From positions 1-48,793 of IMG/VR virus record IMGVR_UViG_3300021962_000174: a stretch of 48,793 nt of DNA, one strand, 5' to 3'. Shown in pieces: positions 2,999 through 48,167 of this stretch. The first letter of the stretch is position 1, and each line of letters starts with the position of its first letter. The stretch comes from a virus. The translations under genes were made by a program, and so were the position numbers. A model generated the notes under the pieces. The model had not been told where the DNA came from, searched no databases, and saw nothing but the letters and a program-made list of their open reading frames with translations.

Positions 2999-5092
2999 TT
3001 ATAGTTTCAATAACTTTTCTACATGGGGTTTTACCATGTCAAATGTTATTGTTTTTGTGCACTCAAACTGTCTTTCAGTTCCCTTGTGTTCTGGACACCA
3101 ATTCCAATCTCCTCTATCAAAAAGGTGTTTAGCAAAACAACCATGGCATACATCTTCATTTATTATACGAACAACATCTGTTTTCATTTCATTAAATGGT
3201 TCCGAAAATCCACTAATCAATACCATAGGAACATTTAATGTCCAGGCATACCAACTCAATCCACTACCAATACCAACAAACATTTTTGAACCCTTTAATA
3301 TCGAACCAATTTCTTCCAATGATTTATTGTTTATTTTGATAACCCCTTCTGGCTGTTTGTTGCCCATGTACCCATCTTCTTCTTTTGATAACAAATAAAC
3401 ATCATATCCTTGTGATTTTACATAACCAACTAACTCTTGCCATCCAGTTGGATTGTTCCAATACTTTGCCTGAGCGGTTGAATGTATTGCTATACAGATA
3501 TATGGTTTATCGGATTTGTATACCGGTAGGTCTTTTACTTTTGGCTTTATTTCGGTGTATTCCAATCCAAGAATATCGGTAATAGTTTGTTGTAATGGTA
3601 TTTTATGTGTTTCATTTTTATTCATATTAAAATCATAACCGTTATCCATGTTAAAAAACCAACCTATTTTATACGAAGCATACAAATCTTTTATTATACC
3701 AACGTCATCTACAAAATTAATATCAGAATAAACATCTCTAAATAAATTATTGTGAAACGTAAAAACGTATAAATTACAATCATGTTTTTTCTTAAACTCT
3801 TGAACATATGGTATCCACGCAAAAGTGTCACCTATTGATTTTGAGTCAAAAAATATCAAAACATTTTTATCTTTTAAATTCATTACGTGTTCGATTGTTT
3901 TTCCATTTGGTTCAGTTACAACAATTTTCCAATTGGTAAACCATTTTCTATTTGGTTTTGCCCAACTATTATTTTTTATAGTTGTTTCATATAATGTTAC
4001 GTTTGTATCGGTATCTATAAATTTAATATCATACTGTATTGGTTGTTGTCCATTTATGGTTACACAACTACCGTCTGTAAACGATATGTTTACTGTATTT
4101 TCGTTTTTATTCTTTCTAACTTTTTCATAAACATGCAATACTGAACTTTTCATTGTTCTCTTCAAAATATCATCATAGATAAAATATAATTTAGATACTA
4201 CCGGTTTCCAATAAAATTTTTTAACACTATCTATTGTTTTATTTCTTTCTTCTGTGTAGTTTTCAATCACATACTGTATTTTTTTAACAACATCATCCAC
4301 ATCTCTTTTTACGGTTGTTGTGTGTAAATCACCAGAGCAATCAGTGGTTATTACGGGCAATCCAGAAGCAGCGGCTTCTAATATAGTTAAGGGTGGATGT
4401 CCAGCTTCAATACTTGTTGCATGAACCAATATACTATGGTTTTTATAGTTTTCTATCAACTCATCATCTGTTAAATCATATTTTACAGTAACATTTGAGC
4501 TTAATAATTCCGAATACTTATCAAAAAAATCTTTATTATTTTTTGTTGGACCTACTACTGTAATTGACATATTCAATTTTTTTGCAGCTTCAATTGCATA
4601 TACAAACCCTTTTCTATCAAAATTAGTATCGTGTATTAAACCATTGTTACCAACACACAGTAATTTTATAGGTTCACTTTGTATATTTTTGTAAAAATGA
4701 TCTACCCTAACGCCATGTTCTAAATAAACCGGAATACCATCAAAATATTCTATTAAATACTTTGCAGGAACTATTGCAGTTTCTGCCAATTTCATTGCTA
4801 ATAAATTATCTCGGTACAATTGTGTATCCTTACCCGCAAGATAAACATGATGATCATGACAAGTGTATACATATGGTATACCCATACTATACAATTCTAA
4901 TGCTTGATTCCAAGTATGTACATGAACTATATCATATTCACCCTTTTTTATTTCATTCATATATGGTATATCAACTTGATGTCCAAGTTTTTCAAGTTCT
5001 GTTTTATATTCCCAAATTATTTTTTCAACTGCACCCCAACCATTTGGTGGGATCGGAAGTAAACCTAAATGTATTTGTGCAATTTTCATCAT
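2999..5092 (-). CDS. GT4 glycosyltransferase fused to a TibC/BAHT-type O-heptosyltransferase
   Basis: The product has 697 residues. Residues 1-315 form a GT-B fold glycosyltransferase of family 4 type: it has an N-terminal Rossmann start (KIAQIHLG), a glycine loop (PPNGWGAVEK) and the donor-site segment TILEAAASGLPVITTD with Glu239. Residues about 330-408 form a beta-rich domain. Residues about 409-697 match the autotransporter strand-loop-strand O-heptosyltransferase family (TibC-like): LIFFDSKSIGDTFAWIPYV, then GIGSGLSWYAW and LISGFSEPFNE. A four-cysteine finger (Cys649, Cys652, Cys666, Cys678) fits the iron-binding motif known for TibC. Members of that family move heptose or another sugar onto Ser of adhesins. 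Two Met codons stand at the start; the second (5089) is better spaced from AAGG. The gene lies 10 bases behind another glycosyltransferase and directly before a Ser/Thr-rich fibre. That fibre is the inferred acceptor; the sugar donor is unknown. Confidence 0.88.
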   Translation of the reverse strand: MMKIAQIHLGLLPIPPNGWGAVEKIIWEYKTELEKLGHQVDIPYMNEIKKGEYDIVHVHTWNQALELYSMGIPYVYTCHDHHVYLAGKDTQLYRDNLLAMKLAETAIVPAKYLIEYFDGIPVYLEHGVRVDHFYKNIQSEPIKLLCVGNNGLIHDTNFDRKGFVYAIEAAKKLNMSITVVGPTKNNKDFFDKYSELLSSNVTVKYDLTDDELIENYKNHSILVHATSIEAGHPPLTILEAAASGLPVITTDCSGDLHTTTVKRDVDDVVKKIQYVIENYTEERNKTIDSVKKFYWKPVVSKLYFIYDDILKRTMKSSVLHVYEKVRKNKNENTVNISFTDGSCVTINGQQPIQYDIKFIDTDTNVTLYETTIKNNSWAKPNRKWFTNWKIVVTEPNGKTIEHVMNLKDKNVLIFFDSKSIGDTFAWIPYVQEFKKKHDCNLYVFTFHNNLFRDVYSDINFVDDVGIIKDLYASYKIGWFFNMDNGYDFNMNKNETHKIPLQQTITDILGLEYTEIKPKVKDLPVYKSDKPYICIAIHSTAQAKYWNNPTGWQELVGYVKSQGYDVYLLSKEEDGYMGNKQPEGVIKINNKSLEEIGSILKGSKMFVGIGSGLSWYAWTLNVPMVLISGFSEPFNEMKTDVVRIINEDVCHGCFAKHLFDRGDWNWCPEHKGTERQFECTKTITFDMVKPHVEKLLKL

Positions 5093-5101
5093 ATAACCTT
5101 T

Positions 5102-7132
5102 TTATTTAATTTCAAATAACCCTTGTTCTCGTATCTGTTCGATGTTTATGTTCTTAAATGCTTTAATTACACTATCGTCATTAAGTATTTTCAAAAATAT
5201 ATCATAGGTTTTATTTTCTTCACATTTAAAAAATTTTGTATCAGTAAATGTCTCGTTACTATCTATTGGTTTTTTGAAAGAGGGTATACGATGTTCTACT
5301 ATTAAATTATTCTGATAGTATACTTCCCATTTGTAGTCAAATGATAAATCATTCTGTGATTTGTAAAATAAAACAACATTATTTTCATCCTTTGAATTTT
5401 CAACCGGTAAAATTGCAGAATATTCAGTTTGACTGCTTGTAAAACTTTTTGTAGCAGTATTTTTTGTATAAGATGAATTAAAGAAATCTAATTCAGACAT
5501 ATTTTCAATTAAAATTTCATCCAAGTTATTTTTAAATACGTTGTAGTATAGATTTTCTAAACCATTTGATTCCGATTGATGTTTAATTACAAAATTTTCA
5601 TATTCATCTACCGAAATTATATTTTCCATTTTATCTAAATAAAATTTTGGTTTTGTAACAAAGAATACGGTTTTTAAACAATTTCCTTCCAATTCCTTTG
5701 TCATCAAGAAAAAGGCATTTTTGTTACTGTTTTTTAAACGTTCAACACATTCTATCAATTTTTTTGAGTCTATTTCGTCAAGTATTACGTCAAAATTCAT
5801 AAAAACAACATAGTCATATTTTAACATATTTGCCAAAGAAACACCTGCAAAAATATTTTGATGAACCGCTGAACCATGATAACCATTATTTTTACTTGGT
5901 CTTAATTTTACTAAAACTTTAGCATCATACATTTCCATCCACCATGTATCATAAAATGTATGTGTTGTTAAAACATTGTTTGAATCATAAAAATAATAAT
6001 CTACACAATCCATTATTCTTTTTTCTGCAGAATAATGATCTGCACATATAACAGGATAATTTGTATATTTTTTTATAGCATTTACACACTCGATTGTTTT
6101 ATCTTTTGTAAATTCACTTTTAGAATATGTTGAAATTGCAATAGCAACTTTTTTTTCATCAAAATAATTCTTTTGTAAATTCAATTTGTTTAATATCTTG
6201 TTCACATTATCATCTAAATCATTAAAATTCAAATAATCAATAATATCATATTTGTCATACATTCCCAAATAAACCGGCAAATTGTATATTAAAGATGGTA
6301 TGCTGTAACCGATTGCCTCTCTTATCACAAGTGGACTTGTTTCTTTATCATTATCATTTCCTCTCGAAGTAAATAAAAATAAATCCATACAAGAATAAAA
6401 TATATCAACATCACCACGCTCACCCCAAATTTTTACATTATCTGGTTTATCCTTTAATAATGGTTCCCAGTAAGTATAAAAATTATCTGCCTGATTTCCC
6501 AAAAAATGAAATTGAACTGGTTGGTCTAACATTTTTTTAGCATATTCAAAAATTTCTGCTTGATTTTTTCTTGGAGTAAAGAGACCAACGTTTAGAATAT
6601 GTTTTATATTTGGATCCAATCCTAACTTTTTTAAAGTTTCATTTCGGTTAGCACGTTCTTTATACTCAATATCATATTCTACAAGAGTTATTGGTATATT
6701 TAATTTTGAAAATTCTGCTCGTTGATATTCAGATATGAGAGCAAAATAATCTGGAAAAAATCTTTTTTGGGATGAATTAAATGACGAGTCATGCGATGTT
6801 TCGACTATTTTATATTTTCTATCAACTGAATATAAACTATCCGCAATATCATTTGACATGAAAAATTCTGGCATTTCTTGTAAATGAATGATGTCAGGAT
6901 TTATTTTATTTATTAAGCTAAACAGTTTTTGTTTATCATCATCCAAACAATGAAACTTATTACCCAATAATTCTTCTATTTGTTTTCTTTGAATAATAAA
7001 TGCAGGTGCTATCATTGAATACTCAATACAATAGACATCCACTTCATCTTTTATTTTTTTAATGAGGGATAATGTATATTGTGGTAGACCACCCGTTGAA
7101 AGATGTGGCACAATAAACAAAACTTTTTTCAC
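5102..7132 (-). CDS. Multidomain glycosyltransferase
   Basis: The product has 676 residues and starts with GTG (7132), preceded by AAGG with 7 bases spacing. Residues 1-320 look like a GT-B family 4 glycosyltransferase: VLFIVPHLSTGGLPQYTLSL at the N-terminus, NVGLFTPRKNQAEIF near 181-195, LFTSRGND near 253-260 and SPLVIREAIGYSIPSLIYN near 266-284. Residues about 328-530 look like a second transferase domain, with an ISTYSK start and a VVFMNFDVI segment that resembles the acidic metal/sugar-nucleotide site of GT-A enzymes. The last 120 or so residues look beta-rich and may bind sugar or acceptor. It ends 9 bases before the start of the TibC-like glycosyltransferase, so the two are probably co-translated and act in one modification pathway. 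Phage or host target and sugar are not shown by the sequence. The GT-A assignment is weaker than the GT-B assignment. Confidence 0.82.
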   Translation of the reverse strand: MKKVLFIVPHLSTGGLPQYTLSLIKKIKDEVDVYCIEYSMIAPAFIIQRKQIEELLGNKFHCLDDDKQKLFSLINKINPDIIHLQEMPEFFMSNDIADSLYSVDRKYKIVETSHDSSFNSSQKRFFPDYFALISEYQRAEFSKLNIPITLVEYDIEYKERANRNETLKKLGLDPNIKHILNVGLFTPRKNQAEIFEYAKKMLDQPVQFHFLGNQADNFYTYWEPLLKDKPDNVKIWGERGDVDIFYSCMDLFLFTSRGNDNDKETSPLVIREAIGYSIPSLIYNLPVYLGMYDKYDIIDYLNFNDLDDNVNKILNKLNLQKNYFDEKKVAIAISTYSKSEFTKDKTIECVNAIKKYTNYPVICADHYSAEKRIMDCVDYYFYDSNNVLTTHTFYDTWWMEMYDAKVLVKLRPSKNNGYHGSAVHQNIFAGVSLANMLKYDYVVFMNFDVILDEIDSKKLIECVERLKNSNKNAFFLMTKELEGNCLKTVFFVTKPKFYLDKMENIISVDEYENFVIKHQSESNGLENLYYNVFKNNLDEILIENMSELDFFNSSYTKNTATKSFTSSQTEYSAILPVENSKDENNVVLFYKSQNDLSFDYKWEVYYQNNLIVEHRIPSFKKPIDSNETFTDTKFFKCEENKTYDIFLKILNDDSVIKAFKNINIEQIREQGLFEIK

Positions 7133-11048: not shown

Positions 11049-14000
11049 TTATCCTAATACAATTACAGTAAACTCCAAAACAGTGGGTATATTAGCAAAT
11101 ACTAATTCTATATTATCGTTATCTGTATGTGTTGCTGTATAAGGTTCAGTTGCATTTCCAGGATAAAAAATTTCCTCATTTCCACCATTTTCACGAATAC
11201 ATACCATTACATTTTTAGTACCAAATGCATGATTTATTGCAAACGTATCATCTACACCATTGCCAATTGAAACAGTGTATTTTGAAAATGATACTCCACT
11301 TGTTCCATTATTGCCAGAAGAACCAGATGTTCCCGGCGTTCCTGGATTACCCATTCCTCCTGATGAACCCGATGAACCAGATGTACCCGATGTCCCAAAT
11401 GTTTGACCAGAAGAACCAGCAGTACCATTTTGACCAGATGATCCAGATGTTCCTGTTGTACCTGAAGTTCCAGATGTACCCCTTGATCCAGAAGAACCCG
11501 CAGTTCCAGATGTACCATTAGTTCCAGATGTTCCAGAAGTTCCAGCAGTTCCAGATGTTCCAGCAGTTCCATTTAAACCGTTTTGTCCATTTGATCCAGA
11601 TGTTCCATTAGTTCCTGAAATTCCCGATGATCCAGAAGATCCATCGGATCCGGAAGAACCGGAAGTTCCAGCATCACCTTTTATTCCAGAAGATCCCGAA
11701 GAACCTGTAGATCCCGAAGAACCCGTAGATCCTGAAGAACCGGCATCTCCTGTCCTTGCAAACGATACTATTATAGAATCTCCTGATGAAAATGTACCTG
11801 ATCCAACAACATGACTTACGACTAATTTTGTATATCCAATTCCACTTAAATTATTTGATGTTATATTAAAAACTACAAATGTAGATGAATCGTATTCTTT
11901 AAATATACGAATAGTACCCTTTACAGAAGTTGTAGAGTCATCCAAAGCAGCAATCCATGTAGATGCAATATTTGTTCCACTAAAATTTAAGTCATCTATA
12001 AAAATTCTATCAACACTGCTGTATGTTGTATTATTGAATTTTAAATTTCCATTTAGAGGATCAGTATCGTCTGTATTTGTATTAAATACAAATTTTTGAC
12101 TGTTACCCCCAAATAGTCCAGATGATCCAGCAGTTCCAGAAGATCCTGATGAACCAGATGTTCCAGATGAACCAGATGATCCGGTTGTTCCAGATGATCC
12201 AGATGTACCATTATTTCCCGAAGATCCTGATGTTCCGGGAAGACCAGTATCACCTTTTCCTCCTGAACTACCAGATGATCCGTCTGATCCGGATGACCCG
12301 GATGTTCCGTGTGAACCAGCTGTTCCAGATGTACCGTGTGAACCAGCTGTTCCAGATGAACCAGATGTTCCACCTGTTCCAGATGATCCCGATGTTCCAG
12401 ATGAACCAGATGAACCAGATGTACCAAATGTCCCGTCAGTTCCAGATGAACCAGATGATCCACCAGTTCCAGATGAACCAGATGATCCCGTTGAACCAGA
12501 TGTACCATTTGTTCCAGACGTTCCGGTTGTACCATTAGTTCCAGATCTTCCACTTGATCCAGAACTTCCATTTTCACCAGATGATCCAGAGGAACCATCG
12601 GATCCAGAAGAGCCGGAAGTTCCACCTGTTCCAGATGTGCCAGATAATCCAGATGTGCCAGATGATCCAGATGTGCCAGATGATCCAGATGTGCCAAATG
12701 TCCCATCGGTTCCCGATGAACCGGCTGTTCCACTTGTTCCGTTTACTCCAGATATTCCAGAACTGCCAGAAGTTCCATTAATTCCAGATGTACCAGATGT
12801 ACCAGATGTACCGTCTCTTCCACTTGTTCCAGAACTCCCATTTTCACCAGAAGATCCTGATGATCCGGATGATCCATTTTGACCAGATGTTCCACTGGTT
12901 CCAGATGATCCAGCAGTTCCAGATGTACCGGATGATCCAGATGTTCCCGCATCACCGGTATCTCCTTTTATACCAGATGTTCCAGCAGTTCCAGATGTAC
13001 CGGATGAACCGGATGATCCAGATGAACCATCAAATCCAGAAGTTCCAGATGTTCCATATGTTTCACCTGAAGTTCCAGCAGTTCCAGAACTTGCTGATGT
13101 TCCTGAAGTTCCTGCATTTCCAGTGTCACCTTGTGCACCATTTGTTCCAGATGTACCATTTTGTCCGTTTGTTCCAGATGTACCATTTGTTCCGGATGAA
13201 CCAGATGTACCAGATGTGCCAGATGATCCAGATGATCCAGCAGTTCCTGAAGTTCCAGCTGTACCAGTTATTCCAGCTAAAGATATTTCCCATAATGAAT
13301 ATGTACCACTACCAACACTTCCATCTATATTAACTACAAGTTGACCGTTTCCACTATTATATGAAGTAACTACACCGGACATTCTATTATTAGAATCATA
13401 TGCAATCATAATAACTTGACCGGTGATGTAAGACAATCCAGTTTCTACTGTAAATGTTTTTGATCCAGTTCCAATTGTATTAGTAGTAGTTGATGACGTA
13501 CTGTATTTATCGCCAGAAAATCCAGATGATCCTGTACTTCCACTTGATCCAGAAGTTCCTGATGTCCCATTAGTTCCAGATGTTCCATTAGTTCCTGAAG
13601 TTCCCGATGATCCAGAGGATCCAGAAGATCCAGAAGATCCTGATGTTCCTGATGATGCACTTGATCCAGATGATCCAGCAGTTCCAGATGATCCAGTAGT
13701 TCCAGATGTGCCAGATGTACCGGTGGTTCCAGATGTACCGGTAGTTCCAGATGTTCCATATGTTTCACCTGAAGATCCAGCAGTTCCAGTAGTTCCAGAT
13801 GTACCGGTAGTTCCAGATGTTCCAGATGTACCGGTGGTTCCAGATGTACCCGATGATCCACTGGATCCAGCAGTTCCTGAAGTTCCAAATGTGCCGTCTG
13901 ATCCTGATGAACCAGAAGATCCTGATGAACCAGAAGATCCTGAAGTTCCAGAACTTCCACCACTTCCTGATGTTCCATATGTTTCACCTGAAGTCCCAGC

Positions 14001-16322
14001 AGTCCCTCCTGAACCAGTAGAACCTTGTTCTCCTGAACTTCCGCTTGATCCAGATGTACCGTTTGTTCCAGATGTTCCATATGTTTCACCAGATGAACCA
14101 GAAGATCCTGATGAACCAGAAGATCCTGATGAACCAGAAGATCCTGATGAACCAGAAGATCCAGAAGTTCCACCGGAACCAGCTGTTCCGGATTGACCTG
14201 ATGATCCATCGGTACCAGATGAACCCGATGTTCCACCTGAACCAGCTGTTCCTGATTGACCAGATGAACCGTCAGAACCAGAAGATCCAGATGAACCATC
14301 TGATCCAGAAGAACCATTTGAACCATTGGCACCAGCTGCACCAGGAGCTCCTTGAGCTCCAGAAGTTCCTCCGGTTCCAGATGAACCATTGGCACCAGGA
14401 GAACCACTAAGTCCAGATGTTCCATTTGAACCATTTGAACCGGTAATAGCGCCAGCTGCGTTATGGGCATATGAAGCAGTAATTGCATATCCAGATGTTC
14501 CAGCAACGGAACCTGTTAAACTTCCATTAAATTGACCGCTAAATGATCCAGTAAATCTACCACCATTGATTGTAGTATCACTTCCTGCAGCATATAAGTT
14601 ACCGCCAACAAATGGTATTCCAGTTTTAATAAAACTTCTATCTGCAGGATTTGATTTGAAATCAAAAAATTCAAATTTAAAATCTAGGTATTCATTGCGA
14701 TGAACATTTTTTATTGGAACATATAAAGTAGTATTACTCGGAGAAAACCCTAAATCTAATTTTTCTTTGATAGATACATCAGATATTGCAGCTTTGTCTC
14801 GCATCAAAAATTTTAATATACCATTACCGCCAAAATTTGGTACTATTGAAATAGAATGATTAAATACAACAGCTCCATTTGTATTTGCAGTTGGAACTTC
14901 TCCCAAATATTTACCATAAGGTGTATTATTTACAAAAGCACTACCAGAAATATAAACTGCAATTTTTTGTGCTCTTGTATCCTGTACTGGTGTTCCCAAA
15001 AAGTAATTAAATGAAAGATTGTAAACAGAGTTTGCAACAAATTTTGTTGCATAACTGGATGTTTGAACGAGCAGATGGTCTTGATTACCAGAAAGAGTAT
15101 ATCCAGTTGAAGGAACTATTTGTATTCCATTTGGAATAAATTGTGAACTTGTTACTTTTGTACCACCAGGAGCACCATTTATGGCCTCAACTTTCCAATA
15201 ATTTACAGGATCAATTGATGATGTGGTTGTTGATCCTGAAACTGTTAGAGTTATTTTGTCATCAAAAATACCTAAAGGATTTTCAATTAAGTTATTATTT
15301 GATTCTACTAATATGTTTTTTGGATAAACCTCACCATCATATGCTAATTCAAATTCACTTGATGGTCTAAATGAACTTTTTGTGTGAACTTTTACTCTGG
15401 TTACTTTTCCAGTATCTACATCTAAATTTGTAATGTCTATTTTAGCGTATGGTTTAAGATTTTCCGTTATTATTCTTTGTTTAGAACTTTCATTATATTC
15501 AATCACATACTGTTGTTGTTGGATTGATGTAACTGGTTTTAATAATCCTCTATCTCTTCCTGATGATGCGGTTACAAACATTCTGTCTGCAAGGGTTAAT
15601 CTTGCTGGAGCACGAAATGACGTAACAGAAGTTTTAAATGGTTGATCACCGTATGCTCGTGATCCAGATGGAAATACTAATTTTGATAAAAATGGAAAAG
15701 TTACAGTTCCACCTTTCATTTCAGGTTTAAATAAATTTTTACCGTCAATTAATGAAACAGAATCTGCATTATATGAATAAGATCCAGTCCCTCCCAATTT
15801 TTTTAATTTACTAGCATCAAATTTTTCTTCAATTACATAAGAAGAAATTTCAGAAATATCAAACGTAGGTGTTCTTGTAAATATGATCTTCGAGTCATTT
15901 TTTTCAAAAGAATTTAAGTTCATTCTATGAATATACTTAAAATTTCTAGAAACTACTTCATTTCTTGGAAGACTTTTTAATGATAAATCGTGGGATGCAG
16001 TTCCTACAAATATGATACTAATTTCCCCAATAACATTTATATCATATATGTATATTGATAGTATTCTAGATCCGTCAACATCCAATTTATTTGTGCTTTC
16101 ATAATAAATTGTTCTGCCAGTATTAGAAATAATATCAATTTCTATTGGAAAATTTGAAGATAGGTATTTAAAATTTGGCTTGTATGTGAAGTAATTTTTG
16201 CCAGATTTTATTAAAGTTTGTTTTGCAGTTACATTGATAAAATTTGGAGAGTTTAAAGTTTTGTCTTCAAACCTTGTACGCACTCTACCTAAATTTTTAC
16301 TTTGTAATTCTCGCCTTATCAT
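11049..16322 (-). CDS. Giant collagen-like tail fibre protein
   Basis: The product has 1757 residues, with ATG preceded by GAGAG. Residues 1 to about 625 are a non-repetitive, beta-rich N-terminal region that ends in short GSF/GSL strands (about 595-615), probably the baseplate-proximal attachment. Three Gly-X-Y blocks follow (about 628-935, 1016-1400 and 1522-1675), made almost only of Gly, Ser, Thr and some Ala, Asn, Asp. They are separated by two globular inserts (about 937-1016 and 1402-1522) that have strand-rich sequences such as [20 protein letters not shown]-terminal globular domain (about 1677-1757) contains [20 protein letters not shown] and may nucleate trimer formation or bind the host. 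Collagen-like Gly-X-Y tracts are known in phage fibres as trimeric stalks. The lack of proline in the repeats means stability would have to come from other features, possibly Thr/Ser glycosylation by the transferases at 2999-7132 (inference). Confidence 0.87.
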
Positions 16323-16333
16323 TTATCTCTCTA

Positions 16334-19300
16334 TTATGTCTCTATTTTAGAAAATCCATTTTCTTTTTTAATCTCAATATGATTATCAACCATGTCACGA
16401 ACACTATCTATATGTGATATAAGTATCACGAACTCAAATTGTGTTTTCAAATACTCCATGAACAGAGAGAAGTTTGCCATTACCGTTGGATCGAGAACAC
16501 CCAATCCCTCGTCTATTGCAATAAAGTTTGGTCTTGGTAAAGACGAAACTTGTATCAATGCTGTTCTTATTGCAAGTGATGAAATAAACTTTTCCATTCC
16601 ACTTGACAATTCCAAATTCCAAAAACGGTCATTATCATATACAATGTATGTATTGATACTCTTACCGTCTGTATCAAACAAAACTTGAAAATCTACAATG
16701 TTTGCCAATATATTATTAGTTTCCTCTTGAATACTTGGCAAAGCATTACTTATCAATTCATACGGAACACCGTTTCTGTTTACTGCTTTCAAATAATAAT
16801 CGTATGCTTCATATTCTTTTTCAAGGTCTTTCAACTTTTGTATAGATACCTCACATTCGTCTATTACTTTCTCACTAACCTTTACATTACCACTATACTC
16901 TAAAATGTTTTCATCAATTTTTTTCAATTCAAATTTTGATAGAGTATTCTTTTCATTTTCTAATTTATCAATTTCTGATTGAATTTTATTATTTTGATTG
17001 ATGGCATCTTCATTTTCTTTATACTTTTCAATCTGATTATCTATGTTACCAATTTCATCTTCTATTTTTTTCTGTTCTTCTTTTGCAGAAAATATCTGTT
17101 TTTCTATCGAATATATTTGTTTCTCATATTTGAAAGCACTATTTTCAATAGAATGTAATTTTTCCAATTCAGAGTAAACGAATGAATTTTTTGTAAATTC
17201 ATCATTCAAATCATTCAATTCAAAATTTAATTCATCTCTGTCTTGTTCAAATCCCCAAATTTGTGATTTTGCTCTTTCTGCATCCTTAACAAAAACATTA
17301 TTTACACAGAACTCACAGTTTGGATCATACTCATGGTCTTTCAAATTATCAATTTTATCTTGACAATGTTGGACTTTTAACTTTACACTACGCAAATCAG
17401 CTTCAAGTTCTGTTATTCTGTTCCTAACAATATCAATTCTTTCTTTACTTTTCATAAGAGTTTCTTTATCAAACTCTTTTGCCAATCCAATATACTTTGT
17501 GTGTGATGTCTTAGCATCATCTAATTCATCTTCCAATGACTTTATTTCATTCGATAAATCATTACTCTTTCTATCTAATAAATATCTCTTATCCAATAAT
17601 GATTGGACAGATTTGGAAGAAAAATTGTCTGCAATCGGTATTAGTTTTTTATTTAATTCCGAAATAGAAACGGTTAATTTTTCAATTTTTTTCTCAATAT
17701 AACCCTTCTGGTCAGTTGTTTCTTCCAAAAGTATCGTATTTGATTTATGACTACCCATTGCATCGGACAACTTCGTAGAGTAATCATGTTTCTTAAATTC
17801 TTTTACTAATGCCTGCAATCCCTTTACTTCATCAGTAGCAATACTATTTAGTTCCTCGAATAGATTTAAGTCAAAGAATTGTGCTAATAAATCCTTCCTA
17901 TCCTTTTGTGCCTTGTCTACAAAGTTTGTATTATTACCTTGCAGTGACATTGCAGTTAGGACAAAATCATCATAGTTCCCAATATACTTCCGTATGGCGT
18001 AATTAGTTCCGTCACGGTCTTCGCCATTAAGTGATACCAAGTCACCGTTTTCTTCATACCAAAAATCTACATTAACTTTTACATTACCCTTCTTTTCTTT
18101 TGTAGCAACTCTCTTTATGTAAAAGTTTTTTTCACCAATCATAAAATGCAGTTTACATTGAAAGTTATCTTTCTTATTGTTCAAAACTTGTGCCGCTTTG
18201 AATGTCCTTGAACACTTATCGAAAAGACAGAACATAATTGCATCAAGAACAGAAGACTTACCACTTGCATTTGGTGCGAACAATCCATATATGCCATTCA
18301 TTCCATCAAATTGTATTCTATTTCCCTTTCCATATGAAAACATATTTTCAAATTCAAATGAAATTGGTTTCCATACAAGATTACGAACTACATCACTTTC
18401 GGATAATTTTGTATTTACATTTCTGTTAATACCTCTAATCTTTTCAAGTATGTCATCTGTTACTCCAAACTTATCGTTTACATAATCAGTAATCAATTTG
18501 TTTTGATATTCTACATCACGAATTTTACCAATAGGATTTACTTTTGTTTGAACATTACCATTGCTTGAACCAACAAGGTGTTGTGTTCTAATATCTATCA
18601 CATTTGTCAATGACTTTAATTCAGTCATTATTTGATTGACTTCTGAATGTGGTGTGTTTGATATACGCAAACGAATTGAATTATACTTTGTCCACTTTGT
18701 TGGCAATTTTTTAATTTTACCGTTTTCAACATCAATTGTATGATAAGACCAATCATTTTCAATCTCTATGAATTTTGATTTCTTATTTTTAATGTCCCAC
18801 TCAATAATGCCATGAACTAACCCCTCACCATAATTTTGTTGTATGAGTGAACCGGCATAAGCAAACTTTCCATCAACATCAAGGTATTGAAACTTATGAA
18901 TATCTCCAAACATCCCATAGTCAAAACCATCGAACATTTCAATCTTAACATCATTGTGTTTCATAAGAACGCCCGCATCAGTTGATGCCCTATCAACAGG
19001 TCCGTGATACAATACTATTTTTGTTCTATCACCTTGAACATTATTTGCTAAAATAAAGTCTTTTGGATTTTCATAAACAGAATTGAGAACAAAATCAACA
19101 TTCTCCAATGAGTATACACCGCTTTGTTTTAGATAAAATAATTCATTCATTTCACCATTTATCAACGAAACAATCGGTGAAAGTGCATCCATTCTACTCA
19201 TATTATTTAAGTTACAATCGTGATTACCAGCAATCAAAATAGTTGGTGCAATCTTGGAAAGAGTGTCAAGAAATTCTGTTACCATATCAACAAGTTCTGG

Positions 19301-19513
19301 TGTCATGTCTGTTTTAGCATGAACAATATCACCGGCAAGATATATTATAGTATTTTTATTTTCTTCTACTTTACTTTTACAAATATCATAAAGTTTTTGA
19401 AATACGCTGCGATATTCTTCATGTCTTTTCAGATTACGAATGTGAACATCAGCAATATGTAATATGGTATCAACACGGGAAAGTCCGCCTGCCCATAATG
19501 TTTCTTTAAGCAT
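16334..19513 (-). CDS. Mre11-Rad50 (SbcD-SbcC, gp47-gp46) fusion nuclease/ATPase
   Basis: One polypeptide of 1059 residues carries both halves of the recombination nuclease. The N-terminus is an Mre11/SbcD metallophosphatase: DVH (22-24), GD (61-62), GNHD (96-99) and a later GDIH. From about 385 an SbcC/Rad50 ATPase begins, with Walker A APNASGKSS (about 412-420), long coiled coils (about 590-940), a zinc-hook CEFC (about 733-736), signature LSSGMEK (about 969) and Walker B FIAIDEGLGVLD (about 996-1007). T4 and most bacteria encode the two proteins separately. The complex processes double-strand ends for recombination-dependent replication and host DNA breakdown. The start overlaps the primase stop by 8 bases, with AGAGG 7 bases upstream. 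All key residues are present, so the enzyme is probably active. The frame is continuous, with no sign of a stop between the halves. Confidence 0.95.
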   Translation of the reverse strand: MLKETLWAGGLSRVDTILHIADVHIRNLKRHEEYRSVFQKLYDICKSKVEENKNTIIYLAGDIVHAKTDMTPELVDMVTEFLDTLSKIAPTILIAGNHDCNLNNMSRMDALSPIVSLINGEMNELFYLKQSGVYSLENVDFVLNSVYENPKDFILANNVQGDRTKIVLYHGPVDRASTDAGVLMKHNDVKIEMFDGFDYGMFGDIHKFQYLDVDGKFAYAGSLIQQNYGEGLVHGIIEWDIKNKKSKFIEIENDWSYHTIDVENGKIKKLPTKWTKYNSIRLRISNTPHSEVNQIMTELKSLTNVIDIRTQHLVGSSNGNVQTKVNPIGKIRDVEYQNKLITDYVNDKFGVTDDILEKIRGINRNVNTKLSESDVVRNLVWKPISFEFENMFSYGKGNRIQFDGMNGIYGLFAPNASGKSSVLDAIMFCLFDKCSRTFKAAQVLNNKKDNFQCKLHFMIGEKNFYIKRVATKEKKGNVKVNVDFWYEENGDLVSLNGEDRDGTNYAIRKYIGNYDDFVLTAMSLQGNNTNFVDKAQKDRKDLLAQFFDLNLFEELNSIATDEVKGLQALVKEFKKHDYSTKLSDAMGSHKSNTILLEETTDQKGYIEKKIEKLTVSISELNKKLIPIADNFSSKSVQSLLDKRYLLDRKSNDLSNEIKSLEDELDDAKTSHTKYIGLAKEFDKETLMKSKERIDIVRNRITELEADLRSVKLKVQHCQDKIDNLKDHEYDPNCEFCVNNVFVKDAERAKSQIWGFEQDRDELNFELNDLNDEFTKNSFVYSELEKLHSIENSAFKYEKQIYSIEKQIFSAKEEQKKIEDEIGNIDNQIEKYKENEDAINQNNKIQSEIDKLENEKNTLSKFELKKIDENILEYSGNVKVSEKVIDECEVSIQKLKDLEKEYEAYDYYLKAVNRNGVPYELISNALPSIQEETNNILANIVDFQVLFDTDGKSINTYIVYDNDRFWNLELSSGMEKFISSLAIRTALIQVSSLPRPNFIAIDEGLGVLDPTVMANFSLFMEYLKTQFEFVILISHIDSVRDMVDNHIEIKKENGFSKIET

Positions 19514-20465
19514 ACAATATCCTCTGTTTAATTATATCATAACTGTCTGTTGGTGGTGTTACCGATTTCAAATTTGAAAAATCTTTGAAACCCATTTCAT
19601 TTATATCTTTGCTTTTCATTTGAACAATAGATACATTTATACCTTCTGAAATTAGTGAAGACGATATTTTTATTGCATCCGAATAAGCATCGTTGTCAAG
19701 TGCAACAATTACTTTTGGTGGTTTACGCAACAAAATCTTTTCTCGAAGTTTTGGTTGAATGATTTTGCCGAAGAGTGGAACTGCATTATATCTTGCCGTG
19801 ATTGCATCAAATACACCTTCAACAAGTGTAACAGGTTCATCCCAATCGATAAAACATTCAAAACCAATAACATCCTTACTCCATTTTGGATTTTTATATT
19901 TTAGGACATCTTCTTCAAAGATAGAACGAGAAACAAAAAAGTTTAGGTTGAAGTTTTCATCATAGGATGGAACAATTATTCTGCCAGAATAGTTACCGTT
20001 AGGACAATAGCCAATCCCATAACGAAGTATATCAGTTCTACCAATTCCTCTTGATTTTAAGTAACCCAATGCTTGTTTCATTTGCATCTTTACTTGAATA
20101 TCTTTTATTTTTGGGTATTCGTATAAACGGATGTATTCTTTCGGTAAAACTAATTCTTCTTTTGTTTCAGTTTTATTCTTTATGTATAGATTTTTTGTTT
20201 TGAGAATTTTATTGAGGTCATCGAGATATTGTTTACCAGCTTTTACTTTTTTGAAAAGTGAAACTATACTTCTACCTTTAGCATTACTAACCCAACAATG
20301 CCATGGATTTTCACCGTTGTTATTTACAGTCAAATCTATTTCGAGTTTTGGTTTGTAATGACTGATGAACGGTGAAAAAAACGAATAGTTGTTGCCAGAC
20401 GTTCTTCTACCTTTACCAAGAACTTTCTCAACGAGAGACAATAAATCGTAGTTTATCATAACCAC
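19506..20465 (-). CDS. DnaG-type DNA primase (gp61-like) with decayed zinc site
   Basis: The product has 319 residues. The start is GTG at 20465 or the ATG two codons on (20459); neither has a strong binding site. The TOPRIM fold is clear: VTLVEGVFDA with Glu216, VIVALDNDA with Asp257 and Asp259, and KDINEMG with Asp288 as a further acidic residue. Residues 134-182 (LGYLKSRGIG to FFVSRS) match the DnaG catalytic core. The N-terminus resembles a CHC2 zinc finger in layout (FFSPFISH, then WHCWVSNAKGRS), but two expected cysteines are Ser, so zinc binding is doubtful. The role is synthesis of RNA primers for lagging-strand replication, with a helicase not seen in this window. The family usually needs the zinc domain for template recognition; its loss is shared by some TOPRIM proteins that are not primases, so a divergent role is possible. 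Confidence 0.85.
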   Translation of the reverse strand: MVMINYDLLSLVEKVLGKGRRTSGNNYSFFSPFISHYKPKLEIDLTVNNNGENPWHCWVSNAKGRSIVSLFKKVKAGKQYLDDLNKILKTKNLYIKNKTETKEELVLPKEYIRLYEYPKIKDIQVKMQMKQALGYLKSRGIGRTDILRYGIGYCPNGNYSGRIIVPSYDENFNLNFFVSRSIFEEDVLKYKNPKWSKDVIGFECFIDWDEPVTLVEGVFDAITARYNAVPLFGKIIQPKLREKILLRKPPKVIVALDNDAYSDAIKISSSLISEGINVSIVQMKSKDINEMGFKDFSNLKSVTPPTDSYDIIKQRILYA

Positions 20466-20515: not shown

Positions 20516-20923
20516 TTACAAGCACTCTTTTAACCACTCCTCTGGTATTTCTTTCTTTGCCCAACGCCACCCTTTTTTATCACAGTATTGAGCATAGGTT
20601 GTTTTACTACCCTTGTATAGTTTAGCATTAGGATTTTGAAATACAAAACGAATATCTATATCAGGATATTGTTCAAATATCAAATCAAATTTTAATCGGT
20701 CTGTCTTTACCCATCTACCCTTTGTTTCGATATACATTTTACCGCCAATCATTTTGTTCATAACAAAATCTGGAGTGTAATTATGTTTAGTTTCTGGTTG
20801 TATGTAGGATATTTTTTCACTTTCGTATGAGAATGATTTGCCATTTTCCTTCAACATATCATTTACTTTATCTTCCAACCCACTACGAAACCCATGTTTT
20901 ATTGCAACTTGATTTCTACGCAT
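20516..20923 (-). CDS. T7 endonuclease I-like Holliday junction resolvase
   Basis: The product has 135 residues, close to the usual length of phage endonuclease I (T7 gp3). The catalytic signature is intact: RSGLEDKV with Glu17, YTPDF with Asp52, and YIETKG with Glu66 and Lys68. These match T7 Glu20, Asp55, Glu65 and Lys67. A C-terminal aromatic/basic segment (YCDKKGWRWAKK) may contact DNA. The family cuts four-way junctions and branched DNA, resolving replication and recombination intermediates before packaging. The ATG overlaps the preceding structural gene's TAA by one base (TAATG), so it is translated with that gene, yet its function belongs with the primase and Mre11-Rad50 genes that follow. 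T4-like phages normally use endonuclease VII (gp49) instead, so this is a non-T4 choice. Confidence 0.93.
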   Translation of the reverse strand: MRRNQVAIKHGFRSGLEDKVNDMLKENGKSFSYESEKISYIQPETKHNYTPDFVMNKMIGGKMYIETKGRWVKTDRLKFDLIFEQYPDIDIRFVFQNPNAKLYKGSKTTYAQYCDKKGWRWAKKEIPEEWLKECL

Positions 20924-47507: not shown

Positions 47508-48167
47508 TTAACCTCTCTTATGCTTTGGTGGAATTATAGCATCAATTACACCCATGTCTAATGCATCTTTTGGTGTAATATAGTAATCTTTAATGGTTAC
47601 ATTTTTCCAATAATCTTTTTCTTTGTTTGAATTTGATTTGAGAATTTCCAAAAGTATTTCTTCCAATTTTTCCATATGTTGAACATTGGCTTTCATATCA
47701 GAAGATTTACCGTAAATGTCTGAACTTATTTCGTGAAACATAATAGTGCTATATTGAGAAGCAGCACGAACACCTGTTCCTGCACAAAGAATAAGAGCAG
47801 CCGCAGACATTGCTCTTCCTCTACAAATGGTATTTACCTTTACATCGAGACTTTGAATGTAATCAATAATACCAAGTGCTTCATAGACAGAACCACCGTC
47901 AGAGTTGATAATCAAGTTAATAGGATCATTTTTATGTTCTTCCGTTCTCATATGTAGTATTGCACGAATACGTGTAATAATATCATATAAACTTCCATCC
48001 ATTATTTCACCAAATAACAATACCGATGATGCTTCAACATCAATTCCGTAATCCATTTGTGTAGTTGCTTCTTTCCATCTAACTGGAATATCGTTTTCAC
48101 TTTCTTTTGATTTATTTGTTACTAATTTTTCATCAGCAACTTCTTCACCATCATAAAAATCGTTCAT
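47508..48167 (-). CDS. clpP: ClpP-type serine protease
   Basis: The product has 219 residues. The catalytic triad of ClpP is intact: Ser121 in GRAMSAAAL, His145 in IMFHEIS and Asp194 in TIKDYY. The spacings (24 and 49 residues) match those of bacterial ClpP. The oxyanion segment NSDGGSVYEAL (88-98) is also present, and TPKDALDMGVIDAII closes the fold as usual. The N-terminal 35 residues are charged and may be cut off as a propeptide. Phage ClpP-like proteins serve either as prohead proteases that mature capsid proteins or as host-type proteolysis subunits; no ClpX-like partner is in the window. AAGGAG lies upstream of the ATG. Position next to the late sigma factor and before the baseplate suggests late expression. 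Confidence 0.93.
   Translation of the reverse strand: MNDFYDGEEVADEKLVTNKSKESENDIPVRWKEATTQMDYGIDVEASSVLLFGEIMDGSLYDIITRIRAILHMRTEEHKNDPINLIINSDGGSVYEALGIIDYIQSLDVKVNTICRGRAMSAAALILCAGTGVRAASQYSTIMFHEISSDIYGKSSDMKANVQHMEKLEEILLEILKSNSNKEKDYWKNVTIKDYYITPKDALDMGVIDAIIPPKHKRG

Follow-up and report, generated by a model that had tools for sequence, protein, structure and literature searches.

A single-chain Mre11-Rad50 fusion of the R555 type encoded in a phage genome fragment

The window analyzed here is a 48.8-kb fragment of a phage genome (48,793 nucleotides in full), and a gene on its minus strand joins a nuclease of the Mre11/SbcD family and an ATPase of the Rad50/SbcC family in one polypeptide (Table 1). 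A first-pass annotation, made from the sequence alone, had stated that the motifs of both proteins follow one another in a single continuous frame of 1059 residues, and we found every motif that it named, in this order: DVH (residues 22-24), GD (61-62), GNHD (96-99), the Walker A motif APNASGKS (413-420), CEFC (733-736), LSSGMEK (969-975) and the Walker B motif FIAIDE (997-1002). A Shine-Dalgarno-like AGAGGA stands 6 bases 5' of the ATG, and the opposite strand carries many stop codons over the same interval. Profile searches divided the protein cleanly in two, with PHROG matches to SbcD over residues 16-321 (2.2e-25) and to SbcC over residues 373-1058 (3.6e-47), and Pfam matches to Metallophos (1.7e-12) and SMC_N (5e-11). 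An AlphaFold2 model of the full chain, built from an input alignment of 49 sequences from the window and fetched contigs (mean pLDDT 82.8, pTM 0.48), matched solved structures of the SbcC head (7yzo, Z 30.5) and of the SbcD nuclease and capping domains (7dog, residues 15-313, Z 24.8; 4m0v from E. coli, Z 23.8), the two SbcD matches taken together reaching from residue 12 to 313. In the protein a short linker joins two complete halves, Mre11/SbcD and Rad50/SbcC, the latter with a CxxC hook.

Table 1. Coordinates of the fusion gene, its parts and other genes of the window
Feature	Position	Strand	Size or residues	Basis or remarks
Two large glycosyltransferase-type proteins	2999-7132	minus		adjoin tail-fiber genes
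Collagen-like tail fiber	11049-16322	minus	1757 aa	downstream of fusion; very long GSSGTSG repeats; Collagen Pfam 6.1e-99
Mre11/SbcD-Rad50/SbcC fusion gene	16334..19513	minus	1059 aa	one frame, ATG start
Rad50/SbcC half	16337..18376	minus	residues 380-1059	profiles, alignment, model, structure match
Linker, Mre11 helix-loop-helix to first Rad50 strand	18377..18409	minus	residues 369-379 (~11 residues)	model
Putative Mre11 C-terminal helix-loop-helix	18410..18514	minus	residues 334-368	model helices 334-348 and 353-368
Mre11 nuclease and capping domain	18578..19513	minus	residues 1-312	profiles, alignment, model, structure match
DnaG-like primase (DNAG_N and Toprim; TIGR00646, MG010-like)	19506..20465	minus	319 aa	overlaps fusion gene by 8 bases
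T7 gp3-type endonuclease I (Holliday-junction resolvase family)	20516..20923	minus	135 aa	Phage_endo_I 3.1e-46; phrog_945 7.1e-47
ClpP-like protease	47508-48167	minus		matches phage head maturation protease families

The N-terminal part of the protein has the fold of an Mre11 nuclease with its capping domain, which reaches residue ~312 in the model. Four of the five motifs that characterize Mre11 (DxH, GDxx[DH], GNH[DE], H and GHxH) are present as DxH at residues 22-24, GDxxH at 61-65, GNHD at 96-99 and H170, and are invariant or nearly so in the 120 homologues described below. The fifth reads G-D-I-H (residues 203-206) rather than G-H-x-H, with Asp204 in place of the first His in all 120. His65 of GDxxH is kept in 119 of them, and His24 of DxH has been replaced by Gln in ten, including loci L034 and L035, giving DxQ. 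With an Asp in the fifth motif throughout the family and a Gln in DxH in some members, neither the specificity of the nuclease nor even its activity can be taken for granted. Of the protein's features the Asp204 substitution has been explored least, and it offers a concrete, testable difference from the enzymes that have been studied.

The Rad50 half contains a complete bipartite ABC ATPase, with a Walker A motif in which Ala instead of Gly takes the first position, the signature and Walker B motifs, the D-loop (D1008) and the His switch (H1034). Its N-lobe begins at residue 380 in the model, and its C-lobe follows an antiparallel coiled coil whose arms (~550-725 and ~740-911) flank the zinc hook formed by C733 and C736. 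The coil comes to ~360 residues in total, in agreement with the ~350 first estimated. Its shortness had also been remarked on, but the Rad50 half, at ~678 aa, lies within the range of split phage SbcC proteins (560-694 aa), so that the length of the coil is ordinary for a phage SbcC.

Between the two halves the model contains a pair of helices that, by their position, we assign as the probable helix-loop-helix of Mre11, the element expected to bind the Rad50 coil; just N-terminal of them lies the only low-confidence segment of the model, a flexible stretch at residues 315-325. An internal start yielding a free Rad50 was considered and rejected because residues 355-390 contain no ATG, GTG or TTG codon from which a separate Rad50 could begin at the junction. 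Values of dN/dS at the junction (residues 321-385) range from 0 to 0.12 between close pairs and point to purifying selection on this region.

How common are such proteins? In viral contigs, a scan with the single protein as query found 48 loci, and one with an alignment as query found 573 or more stretches that match. From both scans and deposited phages we collected 120 full-length fusions in one frame, some loci of the two scans being the same contig fetched twice, so that distinct contigs are somewhat fewer than 120. Their identity ranges from 38 to 98%, except for one at 26%. Invariant in all 120 are D22, D62, N97, H98, H170, D204, H206, K419, C733 and C736, as are S971/G972 and D1001/E1002 in all 117 whose sequence reaches them. 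The SbcD profile search missed two relatives in which the alignment clearly shows an Mre11 half, and an absent profile match is therefore not the absence of the domain. Among genome contigs, the single-protein query gave no matches and the alignment query nine loci, mostly on short MAG contigs that are possibly misbinned phage. The first-pass annotation had proposed a search for such single chains and allowed that many previously described fused homologues would make the protein ordinary; such descriptions exist, as set out below, and ordinary is what it proves to be.

Fusion had been presented as unusual against the two-chain systems of T4 (gp46/gp47), SbcCD and cellular Mre11-Rad50, but fused homologues were described in 2011, when Yoshida, Claverie and Ogata reported them in Mimivirus (R555) and Bacillus phage 0305phi8-36, with further examples in bacteria, Clostridium and Deferribacter plasmids, slime molds, a moss and algae (Virol J 8:427; PMC3175470). 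The same authors argued that the Thermotoga complex could accommodate a fusion if the linker had 9-12 residues, recorded in R555 both GDxxH and an Asp at the position of Mre11 His206, and found R555 homologues to be abundant in aquatic viromes, where their scaffolds also carry phage primases and endonucleases equivalent to gp3 of T7-like phages (PMC3175470). The gene in the window is an R555-like single-chain fusion, a type already described, and the novelty that had been implied is not supported. As in the other R555-like fusions, Mre11 is N-terminal and Rad50 C-terminal in one frame, both motif departures of R555 recur, and the linker, measured from the last helix of the helix-loop-helix to the first Rad50 strand, is within the R555-type range. 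The neighbors named for the aquatic relatives, a phage primase and a T7 gp3-type endonuclease (which we take to be endonuclease I), are likewise both present, and an aquatic viral origin is common to these relatives and the window. R555 itself differs in its length of 1351 aa and a coiled coil of cellular rather than phage length, and in that its host is an amoeba whereas that of the window phage is presumably a bacterium. In a search of viral predicted structures, the top matches were DNA-repair proteins of giant viruses that are as long as a fusion (Tupanvirus A0A6N1NVE8, Harvfovirus A0A3G5A2X2 and one of Yasminevirus), which are 20-25% identical over the whole chain.

Five isolated or complete phages in GenBank carry fusions: Mel-JY01, phiLo, RHph_Y65, 1.031.O and PAU. 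The nearest isolated relative is that of Microcystis phage Mel-JY01 (WWT39521.1), a fusion of 1066-1067 aa that is ~48% identical over the whole chain and has all the motifs, although it is annotated as 'AAA domain containing protein' without mention of Mre11. The same primase lies upstream of it, with one small gene between, and a GIY-YIG-type gene is found upstream where the window has its T7-type endonuclease I. In the complete 190-kb Mel-JY01 genome SbcC and SbcD each have a single strong match, both in one frame, and no second, split SbcC/SbcD copy was found in it, only two weak SbcC matches at model positions 473-792; the fusion evidently replaces the split pair rather than supplementing it. 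The single-chain proteins of Thermus phage phiLo (866 aa), Rhizobium phage RHph_Y65 (959 aa), Vibrio phage 1.031.O (1054 aa), Sphingomonas phage PAU (gp288, 1301 aa) and the 735-kb phage LR756501 (1202 aa) are distant from that of the window, with ~25-30% identity where aligned.

T4 gp47/gp46, like the homologues in Herelleviridae, T5 (D12/D13) and cyanophage, are the same two enzymes with the same presumed job, a coil of phage length and a CxxC hook, but are encoded by two genes rather than one. The split SbcD proteins of T4, cyanophage S-CAM9, SPO1-like phages (Herelleviridae) and Enterococcus phages have GHxH where the window family has GDxH, whereas a T5-like D12 (Vibrio phage VspSw_1) has GDLH and so shares the Asp. 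In a concatenated tree, the fusions of phiLo, RHph_Y65 and 1.031.O grouped with split T4-like pairs, and with the arbitrary root of this tree at least two fused lineages were interleaved with split ones. Fused and split proteins are therefore not separated into two groups in this tree, and the fusions are not a single clade, in agreement with the earlier study (PMC3175470); two fusions may have occurred, or one fusion followed by later fissions, as both fit the arbitrarily rooted tree.

A primase gene lies upstream of the fusion in 125 of the 126 related loci that have at least 1.5 kb of upstream sequence, usually overlapping it or within tens of bases. The further surroundings of the fusion gene in the window are tail and baseplate genes, and the T7 gp3-type endonuclease I gene sits within the structural module of a large phage with baseplate-wedge genes of the contractile-tail type. 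RecA is encoded by all five large relatives tested (Mel-JY01 and four others); for further recombination genes the evidence comes from such relatives, as the window covers only a fragment of its own phage. PADLOC matched the protein to the Lamassu defense ATPase LmuB (3e-31), but the match is confined to the Rad50 half, as expected from the shared SMC/Rad50 fold, and with a primase, a T7-type endonuclease I and a collagen-like tail fiber (all profile matches) as neighbors, rather than the Lamassu partners LmuA/LmuC, we rejected this candidate on context.

What, then, does the protein do? The overlap with the primase gene, the adjoining gene for a T7-type Holliday-junction endonuclease and the presence of RecA in relatives make end resection its most likely role. 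We consider it probable, at about 0.82, that this is a single-chain, R555-like Mre11-Rad50 nuclease of a large tailed phage that, like T4 gp46/gp47, resects ends in support of recombination-dependent replication and repair; the T4 proteins are regarded as the principal enzymes of resection (PMC3016280), and SbcCD belongs to the core of jumbo phages (PMC7824862). By analogy with the known structures of Mre11-Rad50 and SbcCD, two fusion chains would dimerize through their Rad50 ATPase heads and their Mre11 phosphodiesterase domains, ATP would shut the heads on a DNA end, and hydrolysis would give the two-metal Mre11 site access to the DNA, while the cysteine hook, located where the short coil turns back, could tether partners through zinc. 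The enzyme would in this way resect the linear phage genome at its double-stranded ends, and RecA could use the resulting 3' single strands to drive recombination-dependent replication and repair. Fusion would hold the Mre11 helix-loop-helix beside Rad50 and secure co-expression of the two halves, and the gene order suggests that the fusion, primase and T7-type endonuclease genes form one presumed operon. We found no biochemistry in the literature for any member of the fusion family.

A bolder proposal is that the fusions of aquatic viruses are a functionally distinct type, in which the altered metal centre (Asp, with a DxQ sub-lineage) shifts cleavage specificity away from that of T4 gp46/47 and SbcCD and the enzyme makes up a module for replication restart through direct coupling with the neighboring primase and Holliday-junction endonuclease; we regard this as unlikely. 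It is also improbable that the main role of the same protein is to degrade host DNA, or unmodified competitor DNA, for nucleotide supply: the T4 record does annotate gp46/gp47 as needed for both recombination and host-DNA degradation, but the adjoining primase and Holliday-junction endonuclease genes and the RecA of relatives speak for replication and recombination, and the two roles are not mutually exclusive. Could the Mre11 half be weakened or non-nucleolytic, leaving a chain that acts mainly as an ATP-driven clamp or tether of DNA ends? The Asp at a canonical metal-ligand His and the occasional Gln in DxH would fit, but Asp is itself a good metal ligand, every other metal-binding residue is invariant, the T5-like D12 has the same GDxH, and the Mre11 half is under strong purifying selection (dN/dS ~0.03-0.08 in close pairs), so that we hold this reading to be very unlikely. 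Last, an assembly or annotation error merging two genes, which the first-pass annotation had named as what would undo its claim, found no support and is for practical purposes excluded by the one-frame homologues on more than 100 independent contigs and in annotated, deposited phage genomes, by continuous purifying selection across the junction and by the lack there of a start codon for a separate Rad50.

Single-chain Mre11-Rad50 proteins are, then, spread widely among viruses and were already in print in 2011, and our finding mainly corrects a misconception; the window repeats the earlier picture (PMC3175470) with a full-length gene. Having an isolated relative in Mel-JY01 and a short coil, the fusion family would lend itself, as a convenient single-chain model, to structural studies of Mre11-Rad50. 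The further suggestion that fusion fixes a 1:1 stoichiometry adds little, since the canonical Mre11-Rad50 complex is already M2R2.

One homologous gene is itself interrupted. In the 484-kb genome of an uncultured phage (LR756508.1, locus L062), an insert of ~0.9 kb at ~5683-6598 splits the fusion gene right after GDIHK; it contains a 305-aa, Cys-rich, HNH-endonuclease-like ORF in a different frame, and the fusion gene thus spans three frames. The insert looks like a homing element or intron, but Rfam returned no match, intron or other, at this locus or in the window.
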